This document shows, in pieces, positions 5,231 to 64,000 of a stretch of 64,000 nt of DNA. The notes beneath the pieces were generated by a model that saw only the letters and a program-made list of their open reading frames with translations, was not told the origin of the DNA and ran no database searches. Origin of the DNA: Deltaproteobacteria bacterium HGW-Deltaproteobacteria-19 (GTDB taxonomy: Bacteria > Desulfobacterota > Syntrophia > Syntrophales > PHBD01); contig PHBD01000018.1 of the NCBI GenBank assembly GCA_002841865.1, forward strand, positions 1-64,000. The letters run 5' to 3'. Both the position numbers and the translations under genes were made by a program. The first letter of the stretch is position 1, and the number at the start of each line of letters is the position of its first letter.

Positions 5231-5977
5231 ATGTCGCTGACCGTCATTTCGACCATCGTCATTCTCATTATCATGTTCCTGGCATCGGCCCTGCGGGTTC
5301 TCAACGAGTACGAGCGGGCCGTCGTCTTCCGCCTCGGGCGGATCATCGCCCAGAAGGGGCCGGGCCTCATCATCCTGATTCCCGTGGTCGACCGGATGGT
5401 GAAGGTGGACATGCGGACCATCACCATGGACGTGCCGCCCCAGGATGTCATCACCCGGGACAACGTCTCCATCAAGGTGAACGCGGTGATCTATTTCCGC
5501 GTCGTCGACGCCACGTCCGCGGTGACGGAGGTGGAAAACTTCCTGTATGCCACCTCCCAGCTTGCCCAGACGACCCTCCGTAGTATCTGCGGCCAGGCGG
5601 AGCTGGACGAGATCCTTTCGGAGCGGGAGAAGATCAACCTCCATCTTCAGGAGATTCTCGACCGAAGTACCGACCCCTGGGGAATCAAGGTCTCCCTGGT
5701 GGAGGTCAAGCACATCGACCTGCCGGAAGAGATGAAGCGGGCCATGGCCAAGCAGGCCGAGGCCGAGCGGGAACGACGGGCCAAGGTCATCAACGCCGAG
5801 GGAGAGTTCCAGGCGGCCCAGAAGCTCATCGAGGCGGCGGCCCTCATGGAGACCCAGCCGATGTCGCTGCAGCTCCGGTACCTGCAGACGCTGAACCAGA
5901 TCGCCTCGGAGAACAACTCGACTACGCTGTTCCCCATTCCCATCGATCTGCTCACGCCGTTTCTAAAGAAGGCATAG
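5231..5977 (+). CDS. slipin / stomatin-like SPFH-domain protein
   Basis: A 248-residue SPFH protein with one N-terminal membrane anchor (residues ~3-20), then the band-7 domain starting at [16 protein letters not shown] and containing the conserved [13 protein letters not shown] stretch. A charged coiled-coil region follows ([22 protein letters not shown]), and the C-terminus is an oligomerisation tail. An AGGAGG-type ribosome binding site lies just before the ATG. Slipins form membrane-bound rings or scaffolds. In this family they are cut by, or associate with, the NfeD protease encoded immediately upstream, which fixes the pairing here. Confidence 0.95.
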
Positions 5978-6089
5978 ACGCCCGCTGGTCCTGCGAGAGT
6001 TTCCGTTTCGCCCGCCAGGTCCCGGAAGGGGGCGGAGGGTGAGGAAAGCCGGGAATAAACCGCGGTACCGGAAAGGAGAAAGGGATTTC

Positions 6090-6419
6090 TTGGAAACGAA
6101 AGAGAAAAGACACATCCTGACGGGTGGCGTCATCCTCATCGCCCTCGGCGTGCTGATTTTCCTTCATAATACGGGCCTGTGGGGTTTCGGAGACAGCTGG
6201 CCGCTTCTCTTGATCGTTGTCGCCGGCACAACGCTGGTCCAGCGGGTGAAGGACCTTGGCGGCTGGATCCTGATGGTCGTCGGGATCGTGTTTCTCCTGA
6301 CGGGAACGTTGAAAGTCGACATGCAGGTCCTGGGGCAGTACATCCTGCCTCTCCTGCTGGTTGCGCTCGGCGTCAGCATGATCTGGAAAAAGAAAAAGAA
6401 AGACGACCCGAATCCATGA
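6090..6419 (+). CDS. small DUF5668 (LiaI/LiaF-like) membrane protein
   Basis: Four hydrophobic segments within ~105 residues (GGVILIALGVLIFL, SWPLLLIVVAGTTL, GWILMVVGIVFLL, YILPLLLVALGVSMIW) and a Lys-rich C-terminal tail match the 4-TM DUF5668/LiaF membrane-segment family. A GTG at 6039 would add 17 charged residues. A TTG at 6090 is preferred because the strong site AAAGGAGAA lies seven to eight bases upstream and the product then begins METKEKRHILTGG, typical for the family. Function is not established beyond a membrane role. The stop overlaps the next gene (ATGA). Confidence 0.7.
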   Translation: METKEKRHILTGGVILIALGVLIFLHNTGLWGFGDSWPLLLIVVAGTTLVQRVKDLGGWILMVVGIVFLLTGTLKVDMQVLGQYILPLLLVALGVSMIWKKKKKDDPNP

Positions 6420-7162
6420 GGGGAGCCTCCGGGGACGGGAAGGTCCTCGTCATCTGCGATTTTGACGGCACCGTCTCCCGGACGGATGTCGGGAACGGAC
6501 TCTTCAACCGGTTCACCGGCCGGGGCTGGCAGGCAATCGACGATGCCTACTGTTCCGGGGAGATCGGCTCCCGGGAGGCATACACGAGGGTCGCGGCCAT
6601 CTTGGAGGGAGACCGGGACCGGATGCTCGCTTTCGTCCTCCGGGAGGCGGAGCTGGACAGGCATTTTCCAGCTTTCCGGCAGTTCTGCCGTGAGAAGGCC
6701 CTGGACCTGATCATCGTCTCCGACGGGCTGGACTTTTACATCGATGCAGTCCTCCGGAGGCACAACCTGGGGGATATTCCCGTTTACGCGAACCGGACGG
6801 TGTTTCGAGCCGCGCAGCCTCCGGCCATTGAATTTCCCTGGGCCAGCGAGGACTGCGGGCGATGCGGGACCTGCAAGAGGGGGATCCTCCGGTCCCGGCG
6901 GGATTGCTATGACCGGATCGTTTACGTCGGGAACGGCCACTCGGACGTTTGCCCTTCCGCGGAAGCGGACCTCGTTTTTGCCAAGGGGGTCCTCCTGCAG
7001 ACCTGCGAAGAGCGCCACCGGTCCTGCGTGCCTTTTGATAATTTCAGCGAAGTGATTGAGTTCCTGAACAGAAACCCGCTCCGGTTTCCCGGGGCGGGAC
7101 ATCAATGCCTCCGCGGCGCCCGCGCCTCGGATCAAATCAAAGAAAATTCAACAGGGAGGTAA
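6416..7162 (+). CDS. HAD-superfamily phosphatase (MtnX / phosphoserine phosphatase-like)
   Basis: The ATG at 6416 overlaps the preceding stop and gives a 248-residue protein. HAD motifs are clear: motif I ICDFDGTVS near residue 15 with the nucleophilic Asp, motif II VSDGLDF near residue 100 with the Ser, and motif III/IV VGNGHSDVCP near residue 175. The helical cap and a CGRCGTCK patch near residue 145 resemble the MtnX-type subgroup that acts on small phosphorylated metabolites (methionine salvage in the type member). No other salvage genes are nearby, so the substrate is uncertain. Cytosolic; part of the coaBC operon. Confidence 0.85.
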   Translation: MRGASGDGKVLVICDFDGTVSRTDVGNGLFNRFTGRGWQAIDDAYCSGEIGSREAYTRVAAILEGDRDRMLAFVLREAELDRHFPAFRQFCREKALDLIIVSDGLDFYIDAVLRRHNLGDIPVYANRTVFRAAQPPAIEFPWASEDCGRCGTCKRGILRSRRDCYDRIVYVGNGHSDVCPSAEADLVFAKGVLLQTCEERHRSCVPFDNFSEVIEFLNRNPLRFPGAGHQCLRGARASDQIKENSTGR

Positions 7163-7168
7163 TGTTTC

Positions 7169-7543
7169 ATGGCTTCAAAAGCGAAGGGGATCCGCCAGAG
7201 CCAGAAGGATATCTGGCAGAAGAAAATGGAAAAGCGACTGGCCGAACTGGCCGCCAAGGGAATTGAAGGCACCGCCGCGGCCCGGGACGCCGTTGTGCGG
7301 GCCCTGAAAGCGAAAGTCCGGGAGGCCAACGGGCGTCTGGCCGCCATTGACGCCAAGGACAAGAAGACCGCCGACAAGAAGGAGACGAAGGCCAGGAAGC
7401 TGGAGGAGGCCAAGCTGGGGAAGACAAAGGAAGATGCACCACCCGTTGAGGAGAAAGCCTCCAAGAGCAAGAAGAAGAAAGAGGAAAAGGCGGAGAAGAA
7501 GGAAGGCGCCGCCAAGGAAAAGAAACCCAAGGCAAAGGTATAA
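7169..7543 (+). CDS. Lys/Ala-rich basic protein of unknown function
   Basis: A 124-residue protein with a strong GGGAGG ribosome binding site just upstream. Residues 1-65 look helical and amphipathic (IRQSQKDIWQKKMEKRLAEL). Residues ~65-124 are a low-complexity tail of Lys, Ala and Glu, with runs such as SKKKKEEKAEKKEG. The composition recalls histone H1-like or nucleoid-associated tails, but no DNA-binding motif is recognisable. Its stop overlaps the methyltransferase start by one base (TAATG). Could also be an RNA- or membrane-interacting protein. I do not recognise a named family. Confidence 0.75.
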   Translation: MASKAKGIRQSQKDIWQKKMEKRLAELAAKGIEGTAAARDAVVRALKAKVREANGRLAAIDAKDKKTADKKETKARKLEEAKLGKTKEDAPPVEEKASKSKKKKEEKAEKKEGAAKEKKPKAKV

Positions 7544-8535
7544 TGAAGGAAACCTGGACAGCCGGACGCCTCCTCGAGGTGTCCGGCTCCTACTGGCAGG
7601 CCTGTGCGCTCCATGCGGGGGTGAAGCTGGGAATCTTCACCGCCCTTGGGAGCGGTCCGCATTCCGCGGAGGATGTGGCGCGAGAGACCGCGTCCAGCCT
7701 GCGGGGAGCTACGGCGCTCCTTAATGCCCTCACCGCAATGGGGCTCCTGGTGCGGAAGGGTGACGCGTACCGGAATACCGACGAGTCCAGTATGTATCTC
7801 GTGAGGGGGTCGGAGGAGTACATCGGACACATGCTCCTCCATCATCATCACCTGATGGAGTCGTGGGCGAAGCTACCCATGGCCGTGCGGGGAGGCAGGC
7901 CGATCCGGAAGCGGTCGACGTTCCGGAACCGGGAGATCCGGGAGAGTTTCCTCATGGGGATGTTCAACCTGGCCAGCCGCCTGGCGCCCCGGATCGTCCG
8001 GGAGGTCGACCTGTCGGGACGGAAGCGCCTCCTTGATCTGGGTGGCGGTCCGGGGACCTATGCGATCCATTTCTGCAGGCGGTACGACGGCCTTCAGGCA
8101 ACCGTCTTCGATCTCAAGACCACCCGGCCGTTTGCGACGCGGACAATCCGCAGTTTCGGCCTGGAGGACCGCATTGCCTTCCGGGCCGGGAACTACCTGA
8201 AAGACGATCTGGGAGAGGGGTATGACGCCGTATGGCTGTCCCATATCCTTCACGGAGAAGGGCCGGAAGACTGCCGGAAGATCGTGGCCAAGGCAGCGGC
8301 GGTCCTGGAGCCGGGAGGCATCCTGATCGTCCACGAATTCATCCTGAATGATTCCAAGGATGGGCCCCTTCATCCGGCCCTGTTTTCCCTCAACATGCTC
8401 CTGGGGACCCCCGAGGGGCGCTCTTATTCCGAATCGGAGATCCGGGAGATGCTCGCCGCCGCGGGCCTCCGGGACATCCGCCGCCTGCCGTTCCAGGCTC
8501 CCAACGACTCGGGCCTCATCGCCGGCCGGAAGTAA
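7543..8535 (+). CDS. class I SAM-dependent O-methyltransferase (dimerisation domain + Methyltransf_2)
   Basis: A 330-residue protein with an N-terminal winged-helix dimerisation domain (YWQACALHAGVKLGIFTAL through LLVRKGDAYRNTD, residues ~15-90) and a C-terminal Rossmann domain. Its SAM-binding motif I is LLDLGGGPGTYA near residue 165, with a motif LEPGGILIVHEF near residue 265. This is the fold of hydroxyneurosporene/acetylserotonin-type O-methyltransferases and related bacterial enzymes that methylate small hydroxylated or quinone-like molecules. The acceptor is unknown and no biosynthetic partners lie next to it. It is the last gene of the coaBC operon; a terminator follows at 8634. Confidence 0.85.
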   Translation: MKETWTAGRLLEVSGSYWQACALHAGVKLGIFTALGSGPHSAEDVARETASSLRGATALLNALTAMGLLVRKGDAYRNTDESSMYLVRGSEEYIGHMLLHHHHLMESWAKLPMAVRGGRPIRKRSTFRNREIRESFLMGMFNLASRLAPRIVREVDLSGRKRLLDLGGGPGTYAIHFCRRYDGLQATVFDLKTTRPFATRTIRSFGLEDRIAFRAGNYLKDDLGEGYDAVWLSHILHGEGPEDCRKIVAKAAAVLEPGGILIVHEFILNDSKDGPLHPALFSLNMLLGTPEGRSYSESEIREMLAAAGLRDIRRLPFQAPNDSGLIAGRK

Positions 8536-8967: not shown

Positions 8968-10221
8968 TTGACCCATTGCTCGAGTGCGCCCCTTTCTCTG
9001 TCTGAGCTGAAGGAGATCATCGCCGCCGAAGGCATTATCGTCCATTTTCAGCAGATCCTGTCGACCCGCAACCATTCCGTCATCGGATGCGAGGGACTGA
9101 TCCGCGGTCTGTCCCCGGACGGCCGCATCCTGCCGCCCCTGCCCCTGTTTGACGTCGCCCGGCGCCACGGTCTCACCTTGGAGCTCGACCGCCTCTGCAG
9201 GGAAAAGGTCCTGTCCTCCTTCAGCAAGCTCCTTGATTCCAAAAAGAATTATCTGCTTTTCCTCAACCTGGAAACATCGTTTTTGTCGTCCGAGACCGTT
9301 GGTTCGGGATACTTTCTCGATCAGGTCCTGCGGAACGGGATCCCGCCCGCCAATGTCGTGATCGAATTCGTGGAATCCCGGACAGCCGACACCGGCGCCC
9401 TGATGCGTTTCGTGAACGCCTACAGCGAGTGCGGATTCAACATCGCCCTGGATGACGTCGGAGCCGGCCACTCCAACTTCGACCGAATTTCTCTCCTGCG
9501 GCCCGATATCATAAAAGTCGATCGTTCCATCATCAGCGGAATTGCCGCCGACTATTTCAAGCAGGAGATATTCCGATCCCTCGCAAACCTGTCGCAGAGC
9601 ATTGGTTCCCTGATCCTGGCCGAAGGCGTGGAAACGAGAGAGGAGGCCCTCTGTTGCATCGAGCATGGTGCGGACCTGTTTCAGGGGTACTACTTTGCCA
9701 GGCCCCATAACCGCACCTGTCTGGTTTCGGATGAGGCGGAGCAGAAACTCACGGACGTCGCTTCAGACTATAAGATCAGGTGCATAGAAATGGTAAAGGC
9801 TCGGCGGCTTCAGAACAAGCTTTATCAGAAGGCGGCCCGCAGCGTCATCCGGAGGCTTGAGGGGAAGCCGCCGGAGGCGTTTGAAGGTGCGCTCAGTGAA
9901 GCCATGTCGCAATTCGACTTCATCGATGCGCTTTATATCGTGAACGACGAAGGGGTACAGCAGACGGATACGGTCATGAAGGGAGCAGTAAACAGAAGTA
10001 TCAATCCGCTGTTTCAGGCGGCGAAGAAATATGAAGACCTTTCCTACAAAGAATACTATTTCCAACTGATCAACACAGATCTGAAAAGATATACAACGGA
10101 CCACTACATCTCCTTCGCTACGGGCAACCTTTGCATCACCTTGAGCCATCTGTTTCAAGGTAGTAACGGACATTGCTATATCCTCTGCATGGATTTTCTT
10201 GCCGGCGACCGCTCAATCTGA
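8968..10221 (+). CDS. EAL-domain c-di-GMP phosphodiesterase with C-terminal sensor-like domain
   Basis: The start is a TTG at 8968 preceded by CGAGGAG; an in-frame stop just upstream excludes a longer form. Residues ~10-255 are an EAL domain. The signature is EGL (CEGLIRG), followed by LNLE, IEFVE, LDDVGAG, IKVDRS, LAEGVET and QGYYFARP, so the metal- and substrate-binding residues appear intact and activity is likely. Residues ~270-417 form a second domain with a KEYYFQL / YISFATG pattern like the PAS/Cache-type C-terminal domain of YkuI. No membrane segment was seen, so it is probably cytosolic and hydrolyses c-di-GMP under control of an unknown ligand. Confidence 0.88.
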   Translation: MTHCSSAPLSLSELKEIIAAEGIIVHFQQILSTRNHSVIGCEGLIRGLSPDGRILPPLPLFDVARRHGLTLELDRLCREKVLSSFSKLLDSKKNYLLFLNLETSFLSSETVGSGYFLDQVLRNGIPPANVVIEFVESRTADTGALMRFVNAYSECGFNIALDDVGAGHSNFDRISLLRPDIIKVDRSIISGIAADYFKQEIFRSLANLSQSIGSLILAEGVETREEALCCIEHGADLFQGYYFARPHNRTCLVSDEAEQKLTDVASDYKIRCIEMVKARRLQNKLYQKAARSVIRRLEGKPPEAFEGALSEAMSQFDFIDALYIVNDEGVQQTDTVMKGAVNRSINPLFQAAKKYEDLSYKEYYFQLINTDLKRYTTDHYISFATGNLCITLSHLFQGSNGHCYILCMDFLAGDRSI

Positions 10222-10525: not shown

Positions 10526-12856
10526 CTACGTAAAGTTCCGGTGCTGGATGGCCTCAATGAAGCCCATGGTGCCGGCGGTGATCTGGGCGGCGTTGGCCTC
10601 GTCCGTGTCGAGGTGCATGTCCATCCGGTAGGTCGGGTGGACGCGGATGAGAACGTCGCCGAAGATAAGCTCCCGGACGCCCTTGACTTTCACCATCACG
10701 ACATCCCGGTCCCGGAGGCCGAGGTTCAGGGCCTCCTCGGGGGACATATGAATGTGGCGCTTCGCCGATATCACGCCCTTCTCGATCCGGATCGCGCCCT
10801 TTTCACCTTCGATGTCGATCCCCGGCGTGCCCTCCAGGTCCCCGGAATCGCGGATGGGGGCGTCGATGCCGAGCTTGAACTGCTCGGTCCGGGAGACCTC
10901 CACCTGGGTTTCCTTACGCAGGGGGCCGAGAATGCGGACCTTCTCGATCCGCCCCTTGGGACCGATGAGGTTCACCATCTCCAGCGCGGCGAACTGTCCC
11001 GGCTGGCTCAACTCTGTACGCGGCGTCAGATCTCCGCCGGGGCCGAAGAGGATGTCGAAGTCCGCCCGGCTGAGATGGACATGGTGGGCCGATGTGGAAA
11101 GGGGGATGCCCCGGGAGCGGAACTTCTCTACGGTCTCCTGCGTGACCACCCGGCCGAGGGCATGGACCGTCTCCCGGGCAATCATCCGCTCCTCGTCCGC
11201 CGGCACTACCAGGATCCGCACTCTTGAAGCGGGGTTGGAGATGTCGGCGGGTTGCCCCCGCCCCACCCGGGTCGTCCGGTTCACATCGTCCGCCAGGTCG
11301 ATGCCGAGAGTCTCCAGTCCCTGACACACCCGGGCCCGGATCTCCGCGGAGTTTTCCCCGATGCCGCCGGTGAAGATCAGGACGTCCAGGCCCCCCAGGG
11401 CGGCGACGTAGGATCCGATGTACTTCCTGAGCCGGTAACAGAAGGCGCTGACGGCAAGCTTGCAGTGCGGGTCCTCCGCCTCGGCGCCCTCCAGAACCTC
11501 CCGCATGTCGTTGCTTTTGCCGCTGATCCCTTTGAGGCCGCTCTCCTTGTTGAGCATCCGATCCACCTGCTCGAGCGTCATGCCCCGGTGCCGCATCAGG
11601 TGCAGGATCACCCCGGGGTCGAGGTCCCCGGCCCGGGTTCCCATGATTAGCCCTTCCAGTGGCGTCATGCCCATGCTCGTGTCGATGCTCCGGCCGTGAT
11701 CGATGGCGCAGACCGAGGCGCCGCTCCCCAGATGGCAGGAAATGATCCTCAGCTCCCCCACGGGCCGCTTGAGAAAGGTCGCTGCGCTCATAGAGACGAA
11801 GCGGTGGTTCGTGCCGTGGAAGCCGTACCGCCGGATCTGTTCCTCCTCGCCGATCGCAAAGGGGATGGCATAGGTGGCGGCTGTTTCGGGCATGGTCTGA
11901 TGGAACGACGTGTCGAATACGGCGACCTGGGGAACGGTTGGCAGCAGTTTTTCCAGGGCGTCGATCCCCTCGATGTTGAAGGGGTTGTGGAGAGGTGCGA
12001 TGGGGATGTAAGAGCGAATGGCATCCTTCACCTCGTTGCTGATGACGGTGGAACTGGAGAACCGTTTTCCCCCGTGGACGACCCGGTGTCCCACCGCGTT
12101 GATCTCGTTCAGGGATCCCAGGGCCTTGATTTCCGGGTCCGTCAGGACGCCGAGCATGACCGCGAGGGCGTCCCCGACCGTAGCGATCCCTGCGGCGGGC
12201 AGGTCTTTCCGGGTCTCCGGGGTCCGGACGTGATGGGCCGCCTCGCCGGAGCCGATTTTTTCCACGGCTCCTTCCAGGAGCGGTGCCGGCCTGGCCGTGT
12301 CGAAGAGCGAGTACTTCAGGGAGGAACTGCCACTGTTCACGACCAGGATCTTCAGGGGGGCGGAGACGGAAGAGAAGTTCAGGTCATAAGGGTCGGTATT
12401 TTCCCGGAGGGCGACGCAGGCCTTTTCCTGCTCCGCCAGGATTCTTTCGTCCGCCAGCAGCCGCCGGGTGATGATTTTCGTAAGCTTCGCCAGGGTCTTG
12501 GGATTGGTCGCCACGACCCGGGAGATGATCTCCCGGGGGATGCGGATGAGCTTCGACGACCAGCCGGACACGACGCTGGCCATGGCCGGCTCTCCGGTCA
12601 TGATGGACATCTCACCGAGGACGGCCCCCCTCTCCAGGGCGGCGATCGTCTTCTCCGTGCCGTCGGGGCAGGGGAGTGTGACTTCCACTTCCCCATCATA
12701 GACGATCCAGAGGAAACGGCCGATCTCTCCCAGCTTGATAATCGGGGCGCCGTCGGTGAACTCCAGGTACTGGGAGTTTTCGGCGAGGAGGGCGATTTCG
12801 GGATCGGCCAGGTCGGAAAGAATCTCGACGCTTTTCAGAAAGGGCGAAAGGTCCAT
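10526..12856 (-). CDS. cNMP-like domain / acetate kinase / PduL phosphotransacylase fusion
   Basis: The ATG at 12856 (AGGAG eight bases upstream) gives 776 residues. An ATG at 12952 in frame would add 32 low-complexity residues and sits at the predicted transcription start. Residues ~5-130 are a cyclic-nucleotide-binding fold (LWIVYDGEVEV, GAVLGEMSIM). Residues ~168-565 are a complete acetate kinase: VNSGSSSLKYSLFD, GHRVVHGGKRF, RRYGFHGTNH, CHLGSGASV, DTSMGMTPLEGLIMGTRAGDLDP, FTGGIGEN. Residues ~575-776 are a PduL phosphotransacylase with zinc-ligand motifs HHVHLS and KRHIHMS and a C-terminal HLDTDEANAA. One chain should therefore convert acetyl-CoA and ADP to acetate and ATP (or the reverse) through acetyl phosphate. 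No frameshift or missing core motif is visible. Confidence 0.93.
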   Translation of the reverse strand: MDLSPFLKSVEILSDLADPEIALLAENSQYLEFTDGAPIIKLGEIGRFLWIVYDGEVEVTLPCPDGTEKTIAALERGAVLGEMSIMTGEPAMASVVSGWSSKLIRIPREIISRVVATNPKTLAKLTKIITRRLLADERILAEQEKACVALRENTDPYDLNFSSVSAPLKILVVNSGSSSLKYSLFDTARPAPLLEGAVEKIGSGEAAHHVRTPETRKDLPAAGIATVGDALAVMLGVLTDPEIKALGSLNEINAVGHRVVHGGKRFSSSTVISNEVKDAIRSYIPIAPLHNPFNIEGIDALEKLLPTVPQVAVFDTSFHQTMPETAATYAIPFAIGEEEQIRRYGFHGTNHRFVSMSAATFLKRPVGELRIISCHLGSGASVCAIDHGRSIDTSMGMTPLEGLIMGTRAGDLDPGVILHLMRHRGMTLEQVDRMLNKESGLKGISGKSNDMREVLEGAEAEDPHCKLAVSAFCYRLRKYIGSYVAALGGLDVLIFTGGIGENSAEIRARVCQGLETLGIDLADDVNRTTRVGRGQPADISNPASRVRILVVPADEERMIARETVHALGRVVTQETVEKFRSRGIPLSTSAHHVHLSRADFDILFGPGGDLTPRTELSQPGQFAALEMVNLIGPKGRIEKVRILGPLRKETQVEVSRTEQFKLGIDAPIRDSGDLEGTPGIDIEGEKGAIRIEKGVISAKRHIHMSPEEALNLGLRDRDVVMVKVKGVRELIFGDVLIRVHPTYRMDMHLDTDEANAAQITAGTMGFIEAIQHRNFT

Positions 12857-12960
12857 GACGGCAACTCCTGTATCGGTTTGGGACGTCGGTCGGGGGTTTC
12901 CTGACGGCGCTGATTCCGAAGCCGGTGCATCATTCGGAATCACTGGATTCAATGGGCCTT

Positions 12961-13045: not shown

Positions 13046-13080
13046 AAAAAGGGGACGGAGTAACAATCCGTCCCCTTTTT
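13046..13080 (-). terminator. intrinsic terminator after sufCB
   Basis: A perfect 14-base stem (AAAAAGGGGACGGA with TCCGTCCCCTTTTT) around a seven-base loop. It has a U-tract in both orientations and lies 65 bases past the sufB stop on the minus strand. Its core GGGGACGGA...TCCGTCCCC recurs at 19645. Confidence 0.8.
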
Positions 13081-15288: not shown

Positions 15289-16179
15289 TCAGGCCATGAA
15301 TTCCTCAATCACGTCCCGGACGGGCTTTATATCCCGGATGAGGGCCGCCACCTGTCCGGCACCGGCGGGGAAGAGATCGGTATCCCCGGCGAGCCACCCC
15401 TTCGGGGCGTTGAAAAGGTTGTAGCGTTCCGACAGCGTGACGGCGGGATCCTTCATTTCCTTCTCGAGTTTCGGATTCTGGATCACCCGCATGTTCATGC
15501 CTCCCAGGTTGAGGAGCACCGTGCCGCCGTCGCCGCACTTCAGGATGGCCTCTTTCCAGATTGCCGGGGCGGGGCTCTCCTCTGTGGCGATGAGGCGCGT
15601 CCCGATCTGCACTCCCTGGGCGCCAAGGGCCAGGGCCGCGCGGTAGCCGCGGCGGTCGGCGATCCCGCCGGCGGCGACGATTGGGACTTTCACCGCATCG
15701 GCCACGAGGGGAACAAGGACCATCGTCGAGGACTCGGAGCCGAGGGACCGGAGTCCCCCCGATTCGGAGCCGGAGACGATGACGCCGTCGGCGCCTGCCT
15801 CGACGGCCTTGACCGCCGTGTTCAGCGAGAGCAGTACGTGGAGTCCCTTCATGCCGAGGGCGTGAATATGCGGATAGAGCGCCTTCGGCGATCCCGCGGA
15901 GGTGGTCACCGTTTTTACGCCCGCCTCGGCCAGGACTTCCAGGATCTTTGGGTTCTCCTGGTTCATGACCATCAGGTTCGCCCCGAACGGCTTTGCCGTA
16001 AGGGCCCGGACACCCGCGACGAGGCGTTTTGCATCTTCTTTATTGCTGAAGCCGAGGGCGAGCATTCCGAAAGCGCCGGCCTCGCTGACGGCGGCTACGA
16101 ACTTCGGTTCGTTGAGGGCGGCGATGGGGCCCTGGATGATTGGATGACGGCAGCCGAGCATTTCCAGAAGTGCGGACAT
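15289..16179 (-). CDS. nitronate monooxygenase / FabK-like FMN enzyme
   Basis: The ATG at 16179 has AAAGGAGA eight bases upstream and gives 296 residues starting MSALLEMLGCRHPIIQGPI; the open frame further upstream is unrelated sequence. The TIM-barrel NPD/FabK family is recognised from QGPI near residue 15, SAGSPK, GADGVIVSGSESGG near residue 130, VPIVAAGGIADRRG and ALALGAQGVQIGTRLIATEE. These enzymes bind FMN and either oxidise nitronates or reduce enoyl-ACP. In anaerobes their true substrate is often unknown, and the usual active His is not obvious here. A broken ferredoxin gene lies immediately upstream, which suggests a redox function. Confidence 0.85.
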   Translation of the reverse strand: MSALLEMLGCRHPIIQGPIAALNEPKFVAAVSEAGAFGMLALGFSNKEDAKRLVAGVRALTAKPFGANLMVMNQENPKILEVLAEAGVKTVTTSAGSPKALYPHIHALGMKGLHVLLSLNTAVKAVEAGADGVIVSGSESGGLRSLGSESSTMVLVPLVADAVKVPIVAAGGIADRRGYRAALALGAQGVQIGTRLIATEESPAPAIWKEAILKCGDGGTVLLNLGGMNMRVIQNPKLEKEMKDPAVTLSERYNLFNAPKGWLAGDTDLFPAGAGQVAALIRDIKPVRDVIEEFMA

Positions 16180-63564: not shown

Positions 63565-64000
63565 TTATTTCGACGTGATTACCCAGACGCCCTGCCACTG
63601 GTCAGGCGGGTTTTCGATGAGCTCCCTGCATTTGGCGACATAGAAGCGCGACGGGGCGTCTTCCTCCGCCAGACTGGAAAATACGGCCTCGGCCTGGGCG
63701 AATTCGCCCTGGTAGAAGAGGGCGACCGCCTCTGAAAAGCGCGTTATAACCGACTGTATTCGCTCATCGATGGATTCCGGCAGATAGGGTTCATAAACCA
63801 CCACGGGTTCGCTGCGGCCGACCACGGCAACCCGTGAAATCTCCCGCACGGGGAAGGCGCCGCTCATCTGATCCATTGAAGTCTGTGAGATCATCGTATA
63901 GGTCCCGAACTGTTTGTTGATGCCCTCCAGTCGAGCCGCCAGGTTCACGGCGTCTCCGATCATTGTGTAATCGAACCGGGAGTGGGAACCCATGTTGCCG
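63565..64000 (-). CDS. class III adenylate/guanylate cyclase, C-terminal part (cut by window end)
   Basis: The frame is open through the right edge. Visible residues GNMGSHSRFDYTMIGDAVNLAARLEGINKQFG are the final part of a class III cyclase catalytic domain (the ...GDAVNLAARLE motif). A short all-beta end follows (FPVREISRVAVVGRSEPVVVYEPYL) and a helical TPR-like tail (ERIQSVITRFSEAVALFYQGEFAQAEAVFSSLAEED). The N-terminal sensor and metal-binding Asps are outside the window. It would make cAMP or cGMP. Such signals could be relevant to the cNMP-like domain of the acetate kinase fusion, but the distance makes this only a possibility. Confidence 0.9.
   Translation of the reverse strand, partial: GNMGSHSRFDYTMIGDAVNLAARLEGINKQFGTYTMISQTSMDQMSGAFPVREISRVAVVGRSEPVVVYEPYLPESIDERIQSVITRFSEAVALFYQGEFAQAEAVFSSLAEEDAPSRFYVAKCRELIENPPDQWQGVWVITSK

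Follow-up and report, generated by a model that had tools for sequence, protein, structure and literature searches.

The window, that is, the whole stretch of 64,000 nucleotides analysed here (contig PHBD01000018.1 of Deltaproteobacteria bacterium HGW-Deltaproteobacteria-19), carries a minus-strand gene in which a cNMP-binding-like (CNB) domain, an acetate kinase (AckA) and a PduL phosphotransacylase follow each other in a single frame. The frame is uninterrupted from the ATG at 12856 to the stop at 10526, the product (P0001) has 776 aa, and the orthologue alignment begins at the same methionine. An earlier reading of the sequence alone had placed three complete domains in one frame at 10526-12856; the open reading frame and the Pfam matches bear this out, the coordinates are right, and the strand is added here. 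The features of the locus are as follows.

10526-12856, minus strand: fusion gene, 776 codons and a stop, encoding the cNMP-like domain, acetate kinase and PduL (open reading frame, Pfam, orthologues)
10580-11101, minus strand: PduL phosphotransacylase domain, residues 586-759, complete (Pfam, NCBIfam)
11174-12352, minus strand: acetate kinase domain, residues 169-561, complete (Pfam, NCBIfam)
12377-12394, minus strand: conserved linker DPYDLN, residues 155-160, directly 5' of the kinase domain (alignment of 23 orthologues)
12407-12502, minus strand: long helix, residues 119-150, at the position of the dimer-making C-helix of CRP (DSSP of the AlphaFold2 model, alignment)
12503-12763, minus strand: CRP-type cNMP-binding-like domain, residues 32-118 (Pfam PF00027)
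12572-12616, minus strand: phosphate-binding cassette GEMSIMTGEPAMASV, residues 81-95, with A91 after the proline instead of the canonical arginine
12865-12869, minus strand: AGGAG, resembling a ribosome-binding site, 8 nt 5' of the ATG
13046-13080, minus strand: terminator-like hairpin with a T-run, AAAAAGGGGACGG...CCGTCCCCTTTTT, separating the fusion gene from sufB; folding energy -29.5 kcal/mol (z = -5.1)

All three domains exceed their Pfam gathering cut-offs. The N-terminal one matches PF00027 (cNMP_binding) at residues 32-118 (3e-13; 49.9 bits against a cut-off of 27.5), the kinase matches PF00871 (Acetate_kinase) at residues 169-561 over the entire profile (7e-143; 476.5 bits; positions 1-392 of 392), and the C-terminal part matches PF06130 (PTAC) at residues 586-759 (5e-74; 248.5 bits against 25; positions 2-175 of 176). 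The NCBIfam models TIGR00016 (468.5 bits against a cut-off of 293.4) and NF011652 (252.3 bits against 209) identify the kinase and the PduL part, respectively. A Foldseek search with an AlphaFold2 model of the fusion retrieved acetate kinases, R. palustris PduL and the CRP-fold proteins GlxR and Mtb CRP from the PDB. The model is moderate (mean pLDDT 73, pTM 0.51, built on 23 sequences), active-site distances being beyond its quality, and it was used for the folds and the helix 119-150 only.

Upstream of the fusion gene, on the same strand, lie sufC and sufB, and the opposite side is occupied by a convergent gene with an EAL domain (PF00563, 2e-49; window 8968-10221, plus strand), whose C-terminal part has no Pfam match. 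As sufB is followed by the hairpin at 13046-13080 and the EAL gene is convergent, the fusion gene is probably transcribed alone. Upstream of sufC there is a nitronate monooxygenase-like gene (PF03060; window 15289-16149, minus strand). No riboswitch or other known RNA was found 5' of the fusion gene, a promoter scan of the gene gave nothing exceeding chance, and a comparison with 18 other loci showed no neighbour common to the Syntrophales. In four Nitrospirota loci (L046, L047, L048 and L050) we observe a conserved row, with a flavin-reductase-like gene on the 5' side and tRNA-nucleotidyltransferase-like, membrane and solute-binding-like genes on the 3' side (named by eye). Operon context was considered as a functional clue and rejected, as SufC/SufB are situated behind a terminator, the EAL gene is on the opposite strand, and the Nitrospirota row has no metabolic link.

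Distribution and origin of the fusion

The fusion was searched for in 60 relatives and in GTDB species contigs. The domain-architecture search for cNMP, AckA and PduL, a check proposed together with the original observation, recovered the same order in many independent assemblies. The complete three-domain form was observed in 26 of the 155 genomes of the order Syntrophales (as given by record titles), in five Nitrospirota (Magnetominusculus relatives) among the matches found, and in two genomes of another family of the same phylum (G237 and G202). Eight of the 155 Syntrophales genomes encode AckA-PduL with no CNB domain, and seven further ones contain partial pieces, interrupted by a frame break or truncated at the end of a contig. 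The close matches are titled Syntrophus sp., Syntrophaceae, Syntrophales or Deltaproteobacteria, and the more distant ones (51-56% identity) come from Nitrospirota, e.g. Candidatus Magnetominusculus; the carriers are mostly uncultured anaerobic bacteria. These proteins make up an ancient and conserved family, a point that the sequence-only reading had missed. It had described the architecture as one it did not know from any described protein, and indeed we found no paper on the cNMP-AckA-PduL order among the open-licence literature, although protein databases may well list it; nor did the literature search yield biochemistry of any family member.

The same in-frame architecture in independent assemblies (26 in the order, five Nitrospirota, two in the other family) rules out an assembly chimera or an annotation artefact, a reading to which we attach next to no probability. 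The only irregularities on its side, which lend it no support, are frame breaks in a few relatives (G151, G165) and masked bases in G184. The breaks are located within AckA in one case (L160, G151:C250) and between AckA and PduL in the other (L159, G165:C11), and may stem either from assembly error or from decay. GC3 is alike across the three domains, and dN/dS, calculated against an orthologue from the same genus (92% identical), amounts to 0.13 in the CNB domain, 0.10 in AckA and 0.09 in PduL. Hence, with values about 0.1 in each, all three domains, including the CNB one, are maintained by purifying selection. A frameshift or an assembly join between the domains, named beforehand as one way in which the observation could fail, is excluded by the orthologues in one frame together with the similar GC3 and dN/dS.

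The AckA tree unites the fused kinases from Syntrophales, Nitrospirota and G237/G202 (support 99/91) and sets them apart from stand-alone AckA; inside this group, the three-domain proteins cluster together, albeit weakly (92/35). The occurrence of the three-domain form in both Syntrophales and Nitrospirota suggests a transfer between the phyla. In the PduL tree, the two- and three-domain forms are not cleanly separated, and hence the CNB domain may have been lost in the two-domain group.

The same enzyme pair occurs in one chain, with no CNB domain, not only in Syntrophales. An Oligoflexia MAG (L049, positions 898-2838) encodes AckA-PduL distant from the Syntrophales group, and Alicyclobacillus acidiphilus (L084, positions 5824-7605) encodes the reverse order, PduL and then AckA. 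Both kinases fall outside the Syntrophales fused group, and thus AckA and PduL probably have been fused repeatedly, with the caution that these branches are long. A putative CNB-AckA protein in L025 was rejected, since no Pfam family matches its first 160 residues, which are merely an upstream open frame. One genus contains a second three-domain paralogue (L149, G059:C170; L150, G154:C38), in which the cassette is more eroded (FGDMSVFTGNLVAFD) and the DPYDL linker is kept; in this genus, a classical Pta gene is situated a few kb from the first fusion copy.

Active sites and acetate metabolism

The roles of the catalytic and acetate-pocket residues of M. thermophila AckA are established. The catalytic residues N7, R91, H123, D148, H180, R241 and E384 correspond to N174, R258, H290, D315, H347, R408 and E555 of the fusion, and those of the acetate pocket, V93, L122, F179 and P232, to V260, L289, F346 and P399, so that the pocket is of the acetate type. 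All eleven (seven catalytic and four pocket residues) are invariant in the alignment of 23 orthologues (A1). The full profile match and the seven retained catalytic residues agree with the earlier claim of a kinase with all family motifs. Compared to the AckA family (TIGR00016/PF00871; M. thermophila structures 1G99 and 1TUU), the fusion shares the full domain, the catalytic residues and the acetate pocket, at about 45% identity in the structure matches, but it adds the CNB domain before and PduL after the kinase, and its kinase makes up a clade that excludes the genome's stand-alone AckA.

The zinc ligands of R. palustris rPduL are His48, His50, Glu109, His157, His159 and His204 (PMC4784909). 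They align with H592, H594, E653, H701, H703 and H748 of the fusion, each of these six dimetal ligands being invariant in the 23 orthologues; the earlier observation of both HxH motifs is thereby extended to the complete set. Overall, the fusion PduL is 49% identical to the R. palustris protein (PF06130/NF011652; 5CUO) over 185 columns. The two differ at the N-terminus of the domain, the place expected for an encapsulation peptide, which in the fusion is attached to AckA via about 20 residues, so that no N-terminal encapsulation peptide is present. The search for the BMC shell family PF00936 gave no match in the window genome, the controls being detected. Hence the fusion PduL is not linked to a microcompartment, and a role in one is ruled out. 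PduL had been characterised as usually separate and often microcompartment-linked; whatever holds elsewhere, the fusion PduL is neither, being joined to AckA in a genome with no PF00936.

The fusion carries the sole PduL of the window genome, and no classical Pta was found there at E <= 1e-60, the best PTA_PTB match (7e-35) being at the Ptb-like level. The genome also encodes a second, stand-alone AckA (contig C48), which falls into another clade of the AckA tree, a butyrate kinase adjoining two Ptb-like genes, and an AMP-forming AcsA (contig C31). Given these separate genes, the cell may not depend mainly on the fusion for ATP.

In the order as a whole, 41 of the 155 genomes contain PduL. Wherever the domain is complete, it shares a frame with AckA, the only exceptions being short fragments in frames of 39-128 aa. 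Thus, within Syntrophales, PduL means the fusion. Classical Pta was observed in 9 of the 155 genomes; 35 of the 41 PduL carriers lack it, and the six that have it all belong to one genus. The genome G035 has two butyrate-kinase-type matches, two AcsA and no fusion. Taken together, the intact domains, the invariant active-site residues, the missing separate Pta and the absent shell gene make it most likely that the fusion is a bifunctional enzyme interconverting acetyl-CoA and acetate with ATP. The proposal that AckA and PduL, which act consecutively via acetyl phosphate, are truly fused stands, the pair being catalytically complete as judged from the residues.

In a lineage such as this one, which is fermentative and probably syntrophic, the bifunctional enzyme would most likely run, on balance, from acetyl-CoA, phosphate and ADP to acetate, ATP and CoA. 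Alternatively, it could mainly work in reverse and assimilate acetate as acetyl-CoA, its sensor reading the energy or carbon state. Both reactions are reversible, and the Nitrospirota carriers (Magnetominusculus relatives) need not be fermenters; however, AcsA is available for acetate activation in the window genome, and routes of the AckA-Pta type are favoured at high acetate and for ATP formation in fermenters. We consider such a reversal unlikely and retain acetate formation as the main direction. The same step, from acetyl-CoA to acetate with ATP, is performed differently in Syntrophus aciditrophicus of the same order, which is reported to have no AckA and Pta homologues and to form ATP via Acs1, pyrophosphate and AMP (PMC4992975), that is, by one AMP- and pyrophosphate-dependent enzyme, unlike the AckA-PduL fusion.

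The N-terminal domain and its possible ligand

In CRP, the phosphate-binding cassette ends in R82-S83, which hold the cyclic phosphate. In the comparison with E. coli CRP, whose landmarks E72, R82 and R123 aligned where expected, the position of R82 in the 23 fusion orthologues is occupied by Ala (n = 18), Thr (n = 3), Gly (n = 1) or Glu (n = 1), and never by Arg. The arginine is likewise missing in four more divergent members. E82 (CRP E72) and R132 (CRP R123) are retained, both being invariant in the 23 orthologues. Among all 10-residue blocks in the N-terminal domain, conservation is highest in the cassette (mean 0.90 over 23 orthologues), with G81, E82, M83 and G88 invariant.

If the domain were an ordinary sensor of cAMP (or cGMP) switching the fused enzyme, it would resemble the one in mycobacterial Pat (Rv0998/MSMEG_5458), where a CRP-type domain likewise precedes an enzyme of acetyl-CoA metabolism and exerts allosteric control within one chain (PMC8556138). 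This precedent is joined by the Pfam cNMP_binding match above the cut-off, the invariant E82 and GE motif, a weak match of the NCBIfam Pat model to the fusion, and the window genome's eight class III nucleotidyl cyclase domains, due to which cAMP may be present in the cell. Pat, however, is a GNAT acetyltransferase that binds cAMP, whereas in the fusion the arginine holding the cyclic phosphate is replaced by A, T, G or E in 23 of 23 orthologues and is absent from the four more distant members. At the same time, the Pro-Arg of the canonical cassette is kept in three or more of the genome's other CNB proteins, and hence the loss is peculiar to the fusion family rather than a habit of the organism. 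As the arginine is missing throughout the family, control by cAMP or cGMP in the ordinary manner is quite unlikely. Of the earlier proposal of a cNMP-like domain with an allosteric role, the fold is thus confirmed by Pfam and Foldseek, and the identity of the controller as cAMP or cGMP is weakened.

One of the eight cyclase domains lies across the end of the window (63811-64000 within it; G000:C58:63811-64326 in full, minus strand), in a 704-codon frame.

Another possibility is that the domain binds no ligand and is a structural dimerisation scaffold joining AckA and PduL. Such a role would agree with the lost phosphate arginine, with the CRP-type C-helix in the AlphaFold2 model, and with the second paralogue of one genus, where the cassette is eroded further (FGDMSVFTGN), yet the linker and both enzymes are kept. 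On the other hand, AckA already forms its own dimer, as seen in solved structures, and the cassette, where the domain is most strongly conserved, is kept beyond the apparent need of a scaffold. A purely structural role is therefore possible but doubtful. Our preferred readings are a domain that dimerises the protein and responds allosterically to some other ligand, or else one with a structural role, and between a retuned pocket and a dimer scaffold the conservation of the cassette tips the balance slightly to the retuned pocket. The occurrence of AckA-PduL proteins with no CNB domain in eight Syntrophales genomes indicates that the enzyme can dispense with the sensor.

Between the N-terminal domain and the kinase, D155, P156, Y157 and L159 are invariant in the 23 orthologues. 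The whole stretch DPYDLNFxS (residues 155-163; window 12394-12368) is almost invariant and may dock on the kinase.

Proposed mechanism and significance

We propose that the fusion is probably a reversible enzyme converting acetyl-CoA to acetyl phosphate and further to acetate, with a CRP-like domain that dimerises and tunes it allosterically and whose pocket is not for ordinary cAMP or cGMP. The C-terminal PduL domain would exchange CoA for phosphate at its two-metal site, and the central AckA domain would pass the phosphate to ADP. For the CRP-like domain and its long C-helix, a part in dimerisation and allosteric tuning is most likely. Acetyl phosphate might be channelled between PduL and AckA, although the scheme does not require this. 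A stronger version, which we put forward tentatively and hold to be unlikely in full, has a one-chain "acetate synthase" channel acetyl phosphate between its two sites. Its gate would be a CRP-like pocket that throughout the family has been retuned to something other than a cyclic mononucleotide, e.g. an energy or CoA metabolite. If true, bacteria living near thermodynamic equilibrium would have their ATP formation throttled directly and allosterically at this enzyme.

It has long been asked how syntrophic bacteria obtain ATP from acetyl-CoA. The answer given for Syntrophus aciditrophicus, a pyrophosphate-dependent Acs, follows from AckA and Pta being reported missing there. Many of its Syntrophales relatives carry a single AckA-PduL fusion instead, and a survey for pta alone would overlook it. 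Acetyl phosphate is a cell-wide acetylating and phosphorylating agent, and the fusion offers a natural test case of whether it is retained within one protein. The conserved sensor with no cAMP arginine, in turn, allows for a direct test of the signal governing energy conservation at the acetate step. In the carriers of the fusion, the textbook pathway from acetyl-CoA to acetate may thus be one machine under a different signal.
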